The notes beneath the pieces are model-generated. The model made no database searches, was not told where the DNA came from, and worked only from the letters and a program-made list of their open reading frames with translations. Shown here piece by piece: positions 8,633-36,469 of a DNA stretch of 36,469 nt. A program made the translations under genes and the position numbers. Source of the DNA: a virus; IMG/VR virus record IMGVR_UViG_3300034073_004749, positions 1 to 36,469 of that record. One strand, written 5' to 3'. How positions within the stretch are numbered: the stretch's first letter is position 1; each line of letters opens with the position of its first letter.

Positions 8633-8642
8633 TTATTTATAG
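8633..8642 (-). promoter_or_regulatory. T4-late-like promoter box CTATAAATAA
   Basis: Minus-strand CTATAAATAA lies between the capsid terminator and the start of the 66-residue gene, about 23 bases before its ATG. Exactly the same 10-mer occurs at 13603-13612, 13640-13649, 13783-13792 and 17518-17527, always between genes. Resemblance to the T4 late box TATAAATA is seen directly; promoter function is inferred. Confidence 0.55.
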
Positions 8643-8648
8643 ACATTC

Positions 8649-8674
8649 AAAAAAAAGGGGACCAGACGGTCCCC
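8649..8674 (-). terminator. Intrinsic terminator after the capsid gene
   Basis: A 7-bp stem GGGGACC/GGTCCCC with a 4-nt loop, followed on the minus strand by eight T. It lies just after the major capsid stop, so it limits read-through from the capsid transcript into the connector genes, and a new promoter-like box follows at once. Confidence 0.85.
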
Positions 8675-8694
8675 TTCTTCATAGATTAAATCTA

Positions 8695-13296: not shown

Positions 13297-13363
13297 ATTT
13301 ATCTCCTATTCGCTAATTAAACACTGTTAAATTATCAGTTTTTCTGTTTTCAAAATAAATATT

Positions 13364-13371
13364 TATTTATA
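13364..13371 (-). promoter_or_regulatory. TATAAATA box before the terminase genes
   Basis: Minus-strand TTATAAATAA lies about 68 bases upstream of the small terminase ATG. It shares the 8-bp core of the recurring intergenic box. It would start the head operon with a leader of about 60 nt. The surrounding sequence is almost pure AT, which weakens the call. Confidence 0.4.
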
Positions 13372-13390: not shown

Positions 13391-13507
13391 ATGAGATTTA
13401 AAAGACGTGAAGAAAAAGTTTTTAAAACATTCATTAGAAATGGTAGATTAGTAGAATTAAGAAAAGTTGAAGGACTTAGAAATATAATTATAAGGGAAGA
13501 ATTTTAG
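13391..13507 (+). CDS. Small basic protein, 38 residues
   Basis: An ORF read on the plus strand, opposite to its flanks, starting MRFKRREEKVFKTFIRNGRL and ending IIIREEF. It is preceded by TTAGGAGAAATAAC, an excellent ribosome binding site at the right distance. It is very rich in Arg/Lys with a hydrophobic IIII-like end and no Cys. A TATAAT lies at 13368-13373, so close that the leader would be very short. No family is recognised. Reality rests on the ribosome binding site and on the lack of any other use for this stretch. Confidence 0.5.
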   Translation: MRFKRREEKVFKTFIRNGRLVELRKVEGLRNIIIREEF

Positions 13508-13509
13508 AC

Positions 13510-13547
13510 AAAAAAAAGGACTCTACCATATGCAAGAGTAGAGTCCT
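13510..13547 (-). terminator. Intrinsic terminator with TCTTGCATATG loop (leftward)
   Basis: The minus strand reads AGGACTCTAC, loop TCTTGCATATG, GTAGAGTCCT, then a T-run: a 10-bp stem if the closing A-T pair is counted. It works only in the leftward direction, since there are no T after the hairpin on the plus strand. The 11-nt loop is identical to that of the rightward terminator at 13742-13780. Confidence 0.85.
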
Positions 13548-13600
13548 CCGTCAACTTCCGTGTTAACTATTTTGATAATAACTATAGGAGAAGATTATCA
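13510..13600 (-). ncRNA. Predicted short RNA with anti-Shine-Dalgarno loop (leftward)
   Basis: A predicted RNA of about 90 nt starts 5-7 bases after the CTATAAATAA box at 13613-13603 and ends at the leftward terminator. Its 5' end forms a hairpin, TGATAAT/ATTATCA (13594-13600 with 13573-13579), with the 14-nt loop CTTCTCCTATAGTT. This loop is complementary to the ribosome binding site region AACTATAGGAGAA before the HNH gene (22749-22761), 13 of 13 bases. It matches shorter ATAGGAGA stretches before other genes. No ORF with a start and ribosome binding site is seen inside. The RNA itself is inferred from promoter-like box plus terminator. Confidence 0.55.
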
Positions 13601-13602
13601 TT

Positions 13603-13612
13603 CTTATTTATA
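13603..13612 (-). promoter_or_regulatory. CTATAAATAA box (leftward short RNA)
   Basis: Minus-strand CTATAAATAA (13613-13604 reading leftward), with a plus-strand copy 27 bases away. The pair forms a back-to-back arrangement that would fire in both directions from 13605-13648. The two boxes are also the arms of a 10-bp inverted repeat. Confidence 0.55.
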
Positions 13613-13639
13613 GAAAAATAAAAAGTCACTTTTAAGTCT

Positions 13640-13649
13640 CTATAAATAA
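13640..13649 (+). promoter_or_regulatory. CTATAAATAA box (rightward short RNA)
   Basis: Plus-strand CTATAAATAA, the divergent partner of the box at 13603-13613. A predicted start a few bases downstream leads into a hairpin-forming sequence and then the terminator at 13742-13780. Confidence 0.55.
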
Positions 13650-13652
13650 AGA

Positions 13653-13780
13653 TTGTATGGTACTTCAAAGCTGTACATTCACAATTTTTTTAAACAACAT
13701 TTAATCAAATTGTTTTTGTAAAAATATTTATGACCTTTAAGGGACCTCTGATCTTGCATATGTCAGAGGTCCTTTTTTTT
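13653..13780 (+). ncRNA. Predicted short RNA (rightward partner)
   Basis: A predicted RNA of about 128 nt from the divergent box to the rightward terminator. The 5' end TTGTATGGTAC...GTACATTCACAA can fold (GTAC/GTAC plus TTGT/ACAA with an internal bulge). A weaker AT-rich stem CAATTT/AAATTG follows, then the terminator hairpin with loop TCTTGCATATG. There is no ORF with a ribosome binding site. Function is unknown. The shared terminator loop links it to the leftward RNA. Confidence 0.45.
13742..13780 (+). terminator. Intrinsic terminator with TCTTGCATATG loop (rightward)
   Basis: A 10-bp stem GGACCTCTGA/TCAGAGGTCC with the 11-nt loop TCTTGCATATG and eight T. The stem differs from that of 13510-13547, yet the loop is identical. 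Confidence 0.88.
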
Positions 13781-13782
13781 GC

Positions 13783-13792
13783 CTATAAATAA
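13783..13792 (+). promoter_or_regulatory. CTATAAATAA box (third short RNA)
   Basis: This box starts three bases after the T-run of the preceding terminator, so a new transcript would begin where the previous one ends. Confidence 0.5.
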
Positions 13793-13796
13793 TATT

Positions 13797-13908
13797 GTAA
13801 ATTGATTTGATTGGGTGGGACCATTGTAAACACATTTACAGAGTTTTTATGTTAGTATTTAGAAAATGGGAAGAATAAGACTAATCAACTTATTCTTCCC
13901 ATTTTTGC
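13797..13908 (+). ncRNA. Predicted third short RNA
   Basis: A predicted RNA of about 110 nt between the box at 13783 and the long hairpin at 13863-13905. It contains a small stem TGTAAA/TTTACA with tetraloop CACA (13826-13841). An 8-codon ORF (MLVFRKWEE without a good ribosome binding site, 13849 on) is probably chance. The 3' hairpin is complementary to the end of the leftward operon transcript, because the same hairpin serves both directions. Confidence 0.35.
13863..13905. terminator. Bidirectional terminator, 17-bp stem
   Basis: A perfect 17-bp inverted repeat (13863-13879 with 13889-13905) with a 9-nt loop ACTAATCAA. The ends are AAAA/TTTT, so it can act in both directions. Leftward it closes the operon ending with the FkbM gene; rightward it closes the third short RNA. 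Confidence 0.85.
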
Positions 13909-16522: not shown

Positions 16523-17287
16523 TTATTTTGAACGGTGGGTTTGTACATTTTGTAAATTATTTAAATATTCTCTTTTTTCACTTGAAGTTTTTTTAGAAAA
16601 TTCAAGTGCTGTTTTTTCTTTTAATTTTTTTCTTTTTGATTTTAATTCATTTCTTTCAACTGAATTAACAATTTTTTTGCTACCTTTTTTTCCACCAATT
16701 TTAAATTGTTTATGATCAACAGCAACTACTTCAAAAGTAGTAAATTCAAGTGATTCAATATCCATATCACTCATTACATGAATAAATGCTAAATCTCTAT
16801 GAGTAATTTTATTAAGTTTATGTTCTTTTAGAAAGAGATTAATTTCTTTTTGAACTAAGTCATAAGTAGTTAAATTGACTGACCAAGTACTAAAATAAGC
16901 ATTACGATTTTTATCAATTCCGCCTTTTGAAATTTGTTTAAAAAGAGATTTCCATAATTTATATCCATCACGACCAAATTTTTCTGTTAATTCAGTGGAT
17001 GAATATTGAATAGTTAAAGAAGACCATTGTTCATCAAACTTTATCAAATTATTAGTATGAACTTCATTCCAATCACTAATTTCAGATTCTATTGATTTAT
17101 TTTGTAATGATTTATAGGCAAGAATAGATAAAGTTGCTAAAATCTTGTCTATTTCATGACATAAATCTAATAGACGAGGATTTCTTTGAACTCTTTTTTG
17201 AAGTTTTTCTATTGAGGAAAGATTTGCTGCTTGGGTTTTTTTAGTTGCAGAAATTTTTTGAGCGCGTGTTAAATTTTGAGTTGTCAT
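16523..17287 (-). CDS. Unknown basic protein, first gene of the leftward operon
   Basis: A 254-residue protein, first in the leftward operon. It is helix-rich with a basic N-terminus (RAQKISATKK) and a strongly basic C-terminal third (SKKIVNSVERNELKSKRKKL at about 205-224 and more Lys after it). The centre has WKSLFKQISKGGIDKNRNAY and a segment HRDLAFIHVMSDMDIESLEF. No family is recognised. A DNA-binding role (replication initiation, or binding to the repeats just upstream) would fit the charge and the location, but this is inference. AAGGAA precedes ATG 17287. It lies behind two leftward promoter-like sites. Confidence 0.7.
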   Translation of the reverse strand: MTTQNLTRAQKISATKKTQAANLSSIEKLQKRVQRNPRLLDLCHEIDKILATLSILAYKSLQNKSIESEISDWNEVHTNNLIKFDEQWSSLTIQYSSTELTEKFGRDGYKLWKSLFKQISKGGIDKNRNAYFSTWSVNLTTYDLVQKEINLFLKEHKLNKITHRDLAFIHVMSDMDIESLEFTTFEVVAVDHKQFKIGGKKGSKKIVNSVERNELKSKRKKLKEKTALEFSKKTSSEKREYLNNLQNVQTHRSK

Positions 17288-17350: not shown

Positions 17351-17460
17351 AGTTAAAAATTATTTGTGGATGAATAGATAGGAGATAAAATGACAAATCA
17401 ATTGAAACCGCCAAGAAACAATGAAACTTATATCTATCCATCTACAAATAACTTTTAACT
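17351..17460. repeat. 30-bp inverted repeat around a mini-ORF
   Basis: The arms 17351-17380 and 17431-17460 are complementary at 27 of 30 positions. In the leftward RNA, two of the three differences become G-U pairs, leaving one mismatch. The 50-nt loop contains a ribosome binding site and start codon on the plus strand. In the leftward direction the hairpin would lie in the leader of the transcript starting at P2 or at the 17518 box. Confidence 0.85.
17390..17458 (+). CDS. 22-codon mini-ORF inside the hairpin
   Basis: The ORF reads MTNQLKPPRNNETYIYPSTN plus NF, with GATAGGAGATAAA as a strong ribosome binding site. Start codon and ribosome binding site lie in the loop of the inverted repeat, and the last third lies in its 3' arm. 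It could be a leader peptide whose translation opens or closes the hairpin. No rightward promoter is evident. Confidence 0.4.
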   Translation: MTNQLKPPRNNETYIYPSTNNF

Positions 17461-17517: not shown

Positions 17518-17527
17518 TTATTTATAG
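17518..17527 (-). promoter_or_regulatory. CTATAAATAA box upstream of the leftward operon
   Basis: An exact copy of the recurring 10-mer on the minus strand. It would give a leader of about 225 nt for the 254-residue gene, including the 30-bp hairpin. Confidence 0.45.
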
Positions 17528-18737: not shown

Positions 18738-19081
18738 AATCTAAATTTGAAGAACAGATTGCACCACTATTAGGTATTGAAAAATATGAAGTAGACAAGT
18801 TTCCTTATGTACTTACTTGTCATTATACTCCCGACTGGAAGATAACTGACAAACTATATGTTGAGAGTAAAGGACTATTCTCTCAAGAAGACAGACGAAA
18901 AATGAAGGTTGTAAAGGAAACTTATCCTCATGTTACCTTCATTCTTTGCTTTCAAAATGCAAACAAGAAGATTGCTAAGAACTCTAAGACTACCTATGCA
19001 AAATGGGCAACCAAGAATGGCTTTATCTGGTGTGAACTGCCTGACTTAATAAAAACAATCACAAAAATGATAACTGCTTAA
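18731..19081 (+). CDS. T7 endonuclease I-like Holliday junction resolvase
   Basis: A 116-residue protein from ATG 18731. An in-frame TTG four codons earlier is less likely. It carries the active-site layout of phage T7 endonuclease I: FPYVLTCHYTPDWKI near residues 23-37 (the catalytic Asp in YTPD), LYVESKGLFSQEDRRKM (about 41-57, with Glu and Lys of the ExK pair and the DR-K block), then VTFILCFQNANKKIAK and a C-terminal KNGFIWCELPDL. T7 gp3 resolves branched DNA before packaging and helps digest host DNA. The length is close to the family (149 aa in T7), slightly short at the N-terminus. Confidence 0.9.
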   Translation: MLKSKFEEQIAPLLGIEKYEVDKFPYVLTCHYTPDWKITDKLYVESKGLFSQEDRRKMKVVKETYPHVTFILCFQNANKKIAKNSKTTYAKWATKNGFIWCELPDLIKTITKMITA

Positions 19082-19171
19082 CAGTACTGATAAAAAAATT
19101 GTTTACATCAGCAGAGGTTGGTATATAATTATCTCATACTGAAAAACATGATGACTTGGAGAACTAAGATG
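19062..19171 (+). repeat. Early promoter cassette, copy 1
   Basis: A segment repeated at 19531-19602 (partial) and 19966-20075 (almost full length). It holds the palindrome CAGTACTG (19082-19089), an A-run, the -35 TTTACA (19102-19107), TATAAT (19124-19129, spacer 16), then CATACTGAAAAACATGATG and the ribosome binding site TTGGAGAAC. The first bases are the last codons of the resolvase gene, and copy 3 repeats them outside that gene. Confidence 0.9.
19102..19129 (+). promoter_or_regulatory. Sigma70-type promoter, cassette 1
   Basis: TTTACA and TATAAT spaced by 16 bases, preceded by an A/T-rich UP-like tract and the palindrome CAGTACTG. Confidence 0.8.
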
Positions 19172-19513
19172 ACTACTACATACAAAGCAACCAACAAAAC
19201 AGAAGAAGATGCAGCAAAATATCTTCATAAAATTTCTAAAAATATGGAAATCAATGCTGAAACAAGTATTAAATTTCCAAAAAGATTTAATACAACATGG
19301 ATTGTAAATCTTACAGATAAATTAAATAATGAAAATGGAGTAACAAATGTTGCAATATTTACATTGACAACTTGTAATGTAATTGAATTACATAAACTTG
19401 TAGAAGAACAAGTTCTAGATCATATGGATTATGAAGATAGATTAGAAGCTTATAAAGATAGTTTAAATGATGAAGAGTTTTTTCAATATTTTAAAAAAAC
19501 CTCAATATTTTGA
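19169..19513 (+). CDS. Small early protein of unknown function, 114 residues
   Basis: Starts MTTTYKATNKTEEDAAKYLH after GGAGA. In-frame ATGs upstream lie in the cassette and lack a ribosome binding site. It is acidic to neutral, with a beta-like part TTWIVNLTDKLNNENGVTN (about residues 42-60) followed by IATL-type strands and an acidic C-terminal helix (DYEDRLEAYKDSLNDEEFF). It is driven by its own strong promoter, the pattern of phage host-takeover or anti-defence genes. No family is recognised. Confidence 0.75.
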   Translation: MTTTYKATNKTEEDAAKYLHKISKNMEINAETSIKFPKRFNTTWIVNLTDKLNNENGVTNVAIFTLTTCNVIELHKLVEEQVLDHMDYEDRLEAYKDSLNDEEFFQYFKKTSIF

Positions 19514-19530
19514 AAAAAATGTTAAGCAGT

Positions 19531-19602
19531 TAACAGTACTGATAAAAAAATTGTTTACACCAGCAGAAAAGTTGTATATAATTATCCCATACTGAAAAAC
19601 AA
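19531..19602 (+). repeat. Early promoter cassette, copy 2 (partial)
   Basis: The cassette shares CAGTACTG (19534-19541), the A-run, TTTACA, CAGCAGA, TATAAT and CATACTGAAAAACA. It then diverges and uses another ribosome binding site. Confidence 0.88.
19554..19582 (+). promoter_or_regulatory. Sigma70-type promoter, cassette 2
   Basis: TTTACA and TATAAT spaced by 17 bases, the optimal distance. Confidence 0.82.
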
Positions 19603-19631
19603 GATGAATGACTAACTTAAAGGTGAATGAC

Positions 19632-19928
19632 ATGGCAACTTCAAAACAAATACAACAAATTCAAGAATTGATTACTAAAATTGGTGAGCATGCTCCAGAA
19701 ATGGTATATGCTGCAAATTCTCCAGCTCGGAAATTTGATGGTAAACCAATTATTTCTTCCTTTGAAGAAGCTGTAGAAGAGATAGTATCAGATAATGAAC
19801 TTATAGTAAATTATTTCAAATACAGATATAATATTGATATGAATATGGTTAAATTACTTATTGATAAAAAAGTAATTAATTTAGATTTAATGAATTTAAT
19901 TATTGAACTTCATCCATATACTAAATAA
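19632..19928 (+). CDS. Small early protein of unknown function, 98 residues
   Basis: Starts MATSKQIQQIQELITKIGEH, with AAAGGTGA five bases before ATG. It is mainly helical: an N-terminal amphipathic helix, then FEEAVEEIVSDNELIVNYFK (about 44-63) and a hydrophobic C-terminal helix MNMVKLLIDKKVINLDLMN. It is a single-gene unit with its own promoter and an intrinsic terminator directly after it. No family is recognised. Confidence 0.75.
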   Translation: MATSKQIQQIQELITKIGEHAPEMVYAANSPARKFDGKPIISSFEEAVEEIVSDNELIVNYFKYRYNIDMNMVKLLIDKKVINLDLMNLIIELHPYTK

Positions 19929-19936
19929 TTAAACAG

Positions 19937-19964
19937 AAAGGGGAACTAAATGTTCCCCTTTTTT
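19937..19964 (+). terminator. Intrinsic terminator of cassette 2
   Basis: Stem AAAGGGGAAC/GTTCCCCTTT, loop TAAAT, six T. The first half AAACAGAAAGGGGAACTAA is identical to that of the terminator at 20767. Confidence 0.9.
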
Positions 19965-19965
19965 G

Positions 19966-20075
19966 CAAAAATGATAACTGCTTAACAGTACTGATAAAAA
20001 AAAAGTTTACATCAGCAGAGAACTGTATATAATAATCTCATACTGAAAAACATGATGACTTGGAGAACTACGATG
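19966..20075 (+). repeat. Early promoter cassette, copy 3
   Basis: Nearly identical over its whole length to 19062-19171, including CAAAAATGATAACTGCTTAA, which in copy 1 is the end of the resolvase gene. The 3' end with CATGATGACTTGGAGAACTA is also shared. Confidence 0.92.
20006..20033 (+). promoter_or_regulatory. Sigma70-type promoter, cassette 3
   Basis: TTTACA and TATAAT with a 16-base spacer. The palindrome CAGTACTG lies at 19986-19993. Confidence 0.8.
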
Positions 20076-22726: not shown

Positions 22727-22734
22727 TATAAATA
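22727..22734 (+). promoter_or_regulatory. TATAAATA box before the HNH gene
   Basis: ATATAAATATC lies 39 bases before the ATG at 22766. The leader downstream contains AACTATAGGAGAA, the predicted target of the anti-Shine-Dalgarno RNA. Confidence 0.35.
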
Positions 22735-22765
22735 TCATTATACATTAACTATAGGAGAAATTATT

Positions 22766-23303
22766 ATGGAAAAATCACACATCACTCATGAAGAAATTCT
22801 AAATGTATTTGAATACGATGAAAAAATCGGTCATTTAATTTGGAAAAACCCGGTACAAAAGCAATATAAAGGAAAACTTGCTCGGTACTAAAAAACGCAG
22901 TTCAAATGATTATGTTATAATTAAATACAAATATCAAAGATTTTTTGAACATCGATTAGTTTGGTTTTACAAAACTGGTACTTGGCCTAAATTGGTTGAC
23001 CATAAAGACGGAAATAAATCAAATAATAAATTTGAAAATTTAAGAGAGGCAACTCATCAACAGAACTCCCAAAATAGTAGAAATGTTAGAAATACGGTTT
23101 CTTCACGAGTCCCAGGTGTGAGTTGGTGTACAGCAAAACAAAAGTATAAAGTAACTTTAATTAAAAATGGAAAGTATACCCATGGAGGATTTTTTACTGA
23201 CTTACTTGCTGCTGAAAAACGTAGTCATGAAATGAGATTAATGAACTATGACTTCTATGTACCAGAAAATTATTTTGACAATTTGGAGGAAATTAATGGA
23301 TAA
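22766..23303 (+). pseudogene. HNH homing endonuclease broken by a +1 frameshift
   Basis: Translation from ATG 22766 (strong ribosome binding site AACTATAGGAGAA) gives MEKSHITHEEILNVFEYDEK, then LIWKNPVQKQYKGKLARY, and a stop at 22889. The family continues as 'GK.AGTKK...', and this appears in the +1 frame from about 22880 (GTKKRSSNDYVIIKY). One extra base near 22881-22885 explains it. The second part, to 23303, has the HNH core HRLVWFYKTGTWPKLVDHKD (His, Asp-His) with NKSNNKFENLREATHQQN, then a C-terminal AP2-like DNA-binding part (VPGVSWCTAKQKYKVTLIKN). The gene is a selfish endonuclease. The break may be real inactivation, an assembly error in a C-rich context, or recoding. The 3' end overlaps the holin start. 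Confidence 0.75.
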
Positions 23304-36145: not shown

Positions 36146-36469
36146 GCTGGAGTCCATTTTTTCTTTTTGTAGATATATTTTGCTGTTGAAAGTTCTGCAG
36201 AAATCACAGTACCACCCGTTCTTACTATTCCATAAACTATAGGAATAGGATGCCCTTGCTCAGTAACATTTGGAGGAGAGTTGTAAAGGAAACTACCTCT
36301 ATCTCCCCCACTGGCTGCACTAGGGTCTTTAATCTTTGGTTGATTTGGTTGAAAAAGTTGTCCCAAGCCATACATTGCTCCCATCATAATTGCCATTGAA
36401 CCTACAACTGCAAGTCCACCCATAACTGATGCCATACCACCAGCAGCTACTGCACCCATAGCAAATGAC
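36142..36469 (-). CDS. Tail assembly protein I homologue, C-terminal part (starts at 495 across the circle)
   Basis: This is the continuation of the gene starting at 495. Bases 36343-36469 are the repeated copy, and 36142-36342 hold the final 66 codons and stop. The C-terminal domain contains GGDRGSFLYNSPPNVTEQGH (about 176-195) and PIPIVYGIVRTGGTVISAEL (196-215), typical of lambda gpI relatives ('P.N...QG.PIP..YG....G'). An ATG at 36459 is internal, not the real start. The stop overlaps the J start (ATGA). Confidence 0.85.
   Translation of the reverse strand, partial: SFAMGAVAAGGMASVMGGLAVVGSMAIMMGAMYGLGQLFQPNQPKIKDPSAASGGDRGSFLYNSPPNVTEQGHPIPIVYGIVRTGGTVISAELSTAKYIYKKKKWTPA
36343..36469. 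repeat. Right copy of the 127-bp terminal overlap
   Basis: Exact copy of 1-127. It should be removed when the circle is closed. Confidence 0.95.

Follow-up and report, generated by a model that had tools for sequence, protein, structure and literature searches.

The intergenic interval around positions 13510 to 13780 of an uncultured phage genome is best explained, with reasonable though not strong probability, as a punctuation block separating late transcription units, in which two terminators of opposite orientation are inverted copies of a terminator-late-promoter module and share an identical 11-nt loop by descent. Under this explanation, two late promoters (13612, minus strand; 13641, plus strand) would fire outward, and each RNA would reach an intrinsic terminator after ~95-130 nt. 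A third late promoter (13784, plus strand) would lie behind the right terminator, and a bidirectional terminator would then part the block from a methyltransferase gene. Terminators A and B would be diverged inverted copies of one arrangement (hairpin, T8, late promoter), their identical loop the product of common descent and their stems altered by paired changes that kept the pairing. The units would yield short noncoding late RNAs and would insulate a leftward terminase operon, a small rightward ORF of 38 codons and a leftward methyltransferase gene from each other; the transcript of the small ORF, from 13355 on the plus strand, would read across hairpin A, in its plus-strand version, and end at terminator B. 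The interval thus offers a small, clean case in which a phage appears to have duplicated a terminator-promoter module while its hairpins were kept working through paired changes, and in which a loop shared by unlike stems need not imply a function.

The window, that is, the whole stretch of DNA analysed here, is a record of 36,469 bases whose two ends overlap by exactly 127 bases (1-127 and 36343-36469 are identical). It is classed as linear, yet with these identical ends it very probably represents a complete genome with a circular map of 36,342 bases. The genes encode a terminase, a portal, a capsid and a lambda-like tail with a J-type fibre, so the phage is siphovirus-like and tailed. Guernseyvirinae and Eiauvirus proteins show ~40% identity to its terminase, and relatives in IMG/VR reach 78% identity in the capsid protein. 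The structural genes are common to these relatives; the stretch from ~12.95 to 17.3 kb is absent there, except for a homing-endonuclease gene. Searches with TerS, the methyltransferase and the 38-aa ORF as queries found no relatives, and DNA similarity searches of phage and plasmid collections with the interval as query returned nothing useful.

Terminator A (13515-13549, minus strand) consists of stem GGAGGACTCTAC/GTAGAGTCCTTT and loop TCTTGCATATG, with a T tract running to 13510 (hairpin ~-17.7 kcal/mol), and terminator B (13739-13775, plus strand) of stem AAGGGACCTCTGA/TCAGAGGTCCTTT, the same loop and a T tract (hairpin ~-20.4 kcal/mol). The original prediction had placed two inverted intrinsic terminators, one per strand, around divergent boxes, and both hairpins and both T tracts were found, as were the differing perfect stems and the identical loop that it had described. 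Each hairpin has a stable, GC-rich, perfect stem followed directly by a run of T7-8, the form expected of intrinsic (Rho-independent) terminators, to which both may be assigned on their sequence. They differ from that class in the length of the loop, 11 nt against the 3-8 nt of a default scan, and in its identity between two copies. The record contains exactly two copies of the loop, and with a per-base match probability of 0.288 an 11-mer match by chance has a probability of ~1e-6. Among 427 terminators from 267 fetched loci, 71 of them having a loop of at least 8 nt, no other pair had such a loop in common. The shared loop is real and non-random.

The two hairpins and their T tracts overlap the arms of a 34-nt inverted repeat (left arm 13510-13543, right arm 13746-13779, 79% complementary). 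Transcripts running through both arms could fold long-range and disrupt the distal terminator, in the manner of an antiterminator, and the shared loop would then matter by making the arms complementary. The arm-arm duplex is the more stable on paper (-42.7 kcal/mol, compared with -36.2 kcal/mol for two separate hairpins), but the 202-nt gap costs energy and the local hairpins form first; moreover, the minimum-energy fold of a 415-nt plus-strand transcript keeps both local hairpins, and readthrough would reach only the next terminator, at 13865. We therefore hold such a switch to be highly improbable.

Between the terminators, two CTATAAATAA boxes stand back to back, at 13604-13613 on the minus strand (unit A, with T at position +11) and at 13640-13649 on the plus strand (unit B), as predicted except that the left start had been placed one position off. 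A third exact CTATAAATAA box, at 13783-13792 on the plus strand directly behind terminator B, was absent from the original prediction. The arms of the divergent promoter pair are 85% complementary. Noncoding DNA makes up 6.9% of the record and holds 21 copies of the core word ATAAATA, against 6 in coding DNA; among the 21 words that share its composition it ranks first in noncoding enrichment. The majority of sites are found 14-74 nt upstream of a late gene start, several of them at 34-43 nt, and T at position +11 is found at all 15 of the 15 promoter sites compared. ATAAATA is likewise enriched in the noncoding DNA of 9 related genomes, a count that includes two near-identical ones, with a rank of 1-3 of 21 in each, one of them at 51% GC.

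Judged by this motif, the CTATAAATAA boxes are T4-type late promoters, whose consensus is TATAAATA (PMC3184105): the core is enriched upstream of late genes, and the word before the late genes of this phage is identical, with no -35 consensus seen. What differs from T4 is the setting, a siphovirus-like 36-kb genome without a recognised gp55, gp33 or gp45 homolog. No family match to the gp55 sigma or the gp45 clamp was found in the phage genome, and a candidate gp33-like coactivator at 19608-19928, with a Pfam match at E 0.34, gained no support from a genome search. The same combination is seen across the siphovirus-like group (the whole window and kin loci L312-L329), where ATAAATA is enriched in noncoding DNA and T4 gp55, gp33 and clamp are not recognised. 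A siphovirus group that apparently relies on T4-type late promoters, with none of the T4 late-transcription proteins recognisable in it, is possibly the weightier by-product of this analysis.

What was copied seems to be a terminator-promoter module rather than a loop, because the similarity spans the T8 tract and the promoter, is matched at 8.65 kb and recurs as an arrangement at 29.4 kb and in kin. In local alignment, terminator blocks A and B score 52, compared with a best of 28 in 5,000 shuffles, a test that is approximate in such T-rich sequence. The alignment spans GGA, the stem, the loop, T8 and then GYCTA(T)AAAT, so that, beyond the loop, the copies agree in 7 of 10 stem pairs, in T8 and in the GYCTA(T)AAAT that follows. 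In copy B this tail forms the intact third promoter, whereas copy A keeps a decayed form, GTCTAAAAT, where the 38-codon ORF ends. Between the stems, one pair has been inserted and two have been swapped, every change being paired. Downstream of the capsid gene, a paralogous module (8634-8677, minus strand) reads GGGGACC-gtct-GGTCCCC, T8 and then GAATGTCTATAAATA, and the T8-promoter part that it has in common with the interval scores 35 against a shuffle maximum of 30. A late promoter directly after a terminator is also present at 29.4 kb, and in kin loci L154, L194 and L204.

A single template switch during replication can alter the two arms of a stem together (PMC8794818). As in the hairpins maintained in that way, the phage stem differences are paired on both arms and the stem is preserved; the events proposed here, however, would separate two paralogous copies and not lie along a phylogeny (PMC8794818). 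The bodies of RNAs A and B gave no significant alignment (p 0.10), and the duplication is therefore traced for the terminators and promoters only, not for whole units. We infer the duplication and its order from these comparisons; because the block is absent from every relative, the ancestry cannot be polarised.

The original prediction took the changed stems and the constant loop to imply that the loop itself works, a conclusion undercut by the extension of the similarity past the loop to the stem, T8 and promoter. A functional loop, serving as a protein-binding site or as an sRNA seed against a host transcript and kept identical while the stems covary, would fit the 11/11 identity beside three changed stem pairs, and no similar shared-loop pair exists among the other terminators surveyed. 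A loop free of constraint should also diverge no more slowly than a paired stem, and against a view of duplication only, the complete identity therefore leaves room for constraint. Under an equal-rate model with three paired stem events, each counted as a single event, and zero loop events, however, the probability of no loop change is 0.11-0.27, which is not significant; constraint on the loop may exist, but the data do not demand it. The A-B identity outside the loop also weighs against a functional loop, as does the phage genome, which holds no exact target copy beyond the two loops. In the terminators of fetched relatives the loop was not found, the nearest relatives being without this intergenic block altogether, and pattern scans of IMG/VR, in which very near records were possibly left out, gave no phage long hairpin terminator with the loop among the matches listed. 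On balance, we regard a functional loop as unlikely. It is distinctly unlikely that the interval is a scaffold for divergent late RNAs whose common terminator loop is a shared recognition element (a protein site, or a seed against one host RNA); were this true, the same loop would be delivered to the cell by two promoters on opposite strands. The loop was also considered as a widespread terminator signature and rejected, since scans of IMG/VR and GTDB genomes gave no other phage long hairpin with this loop among the matches listed. In GTDB, a cluster of Psychrobacter matches proved to be conserved sequence that forms no hairpin, and the few bacterial hairpins that do contain the loop seem to be chance matches.

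Kissing-loop RNAs include retroviral dimerisation loops, plasmid antisense RNAs and phi29 pRNA, and like them the phage hairpin holds a palindrome in its loop. It had been proposed that RNAs A and B dimerise by kissing through CATATG, which is self-complementary and present in both loops. The predicted self-duplex is weak, however, at -4.1 kcal/mol compared with -7.9 to -10.9 kcal/mol for GC-rich 6-nt palindromes like those of strong kissing loops. A 6-nt palindrome occurs in 13% of random 11-mers, 20% of random 11-mers pair with themselves equally well, and in the predicted fold the last G of the loop is engaged in a U-G closing pair. Loop-loop complementarity is thus not clearly above chance: the phage palindrome is AU-rich, weak and ordinary for random loops, with no sign of a partner or oligomer, and dimerisation by kissing seems to us barely credible.

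The distance from box to T-tract end is ~96 and ~130 nt, fitting the predicted 90-130 nt, and, also as predicted, neither RNA contains a good ORF, a ribosome-site scan giving at most 15 codons. From putative start sites, RNA A (~90-96 nt) would extend over 13508-13603 on the minus strand and RNA B (~125-130 nt) over 13650-13779 on the plus strand. The sequence supports the proposed arrangement of divergent promoters, two short units and two terminators. A third predicted short unit, C, which the original prediction did not include, would run from the promoter at 13784 (unit 13793-13908, plus strand) into a bidirectional terminator with a AATGGGAAGAATAAG stem (13865-13903), which is also placed to end the leftward methyltransferase gene. 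The boxes at 13612 (minus), 13641 (plus) and 13784 (plus) have no gene at the usual distance, and short noncoding transcripts are therefore the natural prediction. It is likely that short late RNAs are made from the interval. Structured RNA bodies were rejected: folded without terminators, RNA A (z -0.75) and RNA C (z +0.54) are no better folded than shuffles, and RNA B (z -1.84) is only slightly better. Rfam 15 contained no family above its gathering score for these RNAs, an mmgR-like match (E 0.066) lying far under its own. Short late units in kin (L194 4665, L204 391, L320 8260) lie at gene 3' ends, may be ordinary 3' UTRs and are not counted as support.

To the left of terminator A, the plus strand carries a late-type 38-codon ORF (MRFKRREEKVFKTFIRNGRLVELRKVEGLRNIIIREEF, 13391-13507) that was not part of the original prediction. 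It has the SD TTAGGAG and, 36 nt upstream, an ATAAATA late promoter box (13355-13361, plus strand), and its stop abuts terminator A; homolog searches with the ORF found none. The plus-strand version of hairpin A is without a T tract, and an mRNA starting near 13365 would meet its first T tract at terminator B, so the 3' UTR of the ORF would be antisense to RNA A and hold its full complement. RNA A could then act as a cis-antisense RNA that tunes the stability or translation of the ORF mRNA, and for a regulatory role this overlap gives the most promising lead, albeit a slender one that we think unlikely to hold. Its attraction lies in the SD and the late promoter at canonical distance, and in the exposed CUUCUCCUA of RNA A, which could pair with the SD TAGGAGAA of the ORF and also with ACTATAGGAGAA before 22766. 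Against this, the ORF is without a homolog, and complementarity to an SD is easily fortuitous in a pyrimidine-rich loop.

Several further features of the window were observed. The predicted exposed loop of RNA A, CUUCUCCUAUAGU (13573-13600, minus strand), has 8 nt complementary to the ribosome site of the 38-codon ORF and 12 nt complementary to the one before 22766 (22744-22770). The HNH endonuclease gene that begins there (22766-23303) is apparently split by a frameshift (22766-22891 / 22878-23303) and is preceded by a late promoter at 22727 on the plus strand. A 30-nt inverted repeat (17351-17380 / 17431-17460, 90% complementary) lies in intergenic DNA upstream of 16523-17287 and downstream of a minus-strand late promoter at 17526, and is, after the interval itself, a second indication that regulatory DNA was duplicated in inverted form. 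Finally, three near-identical early promoter regions (19056-19118, 19508-19570 and 19960-20022) are spaced at 452 bp, each with TTTACA, 16-17 nt and TATAAT, with upstream repeats, and with a small gene of unknown function after it.
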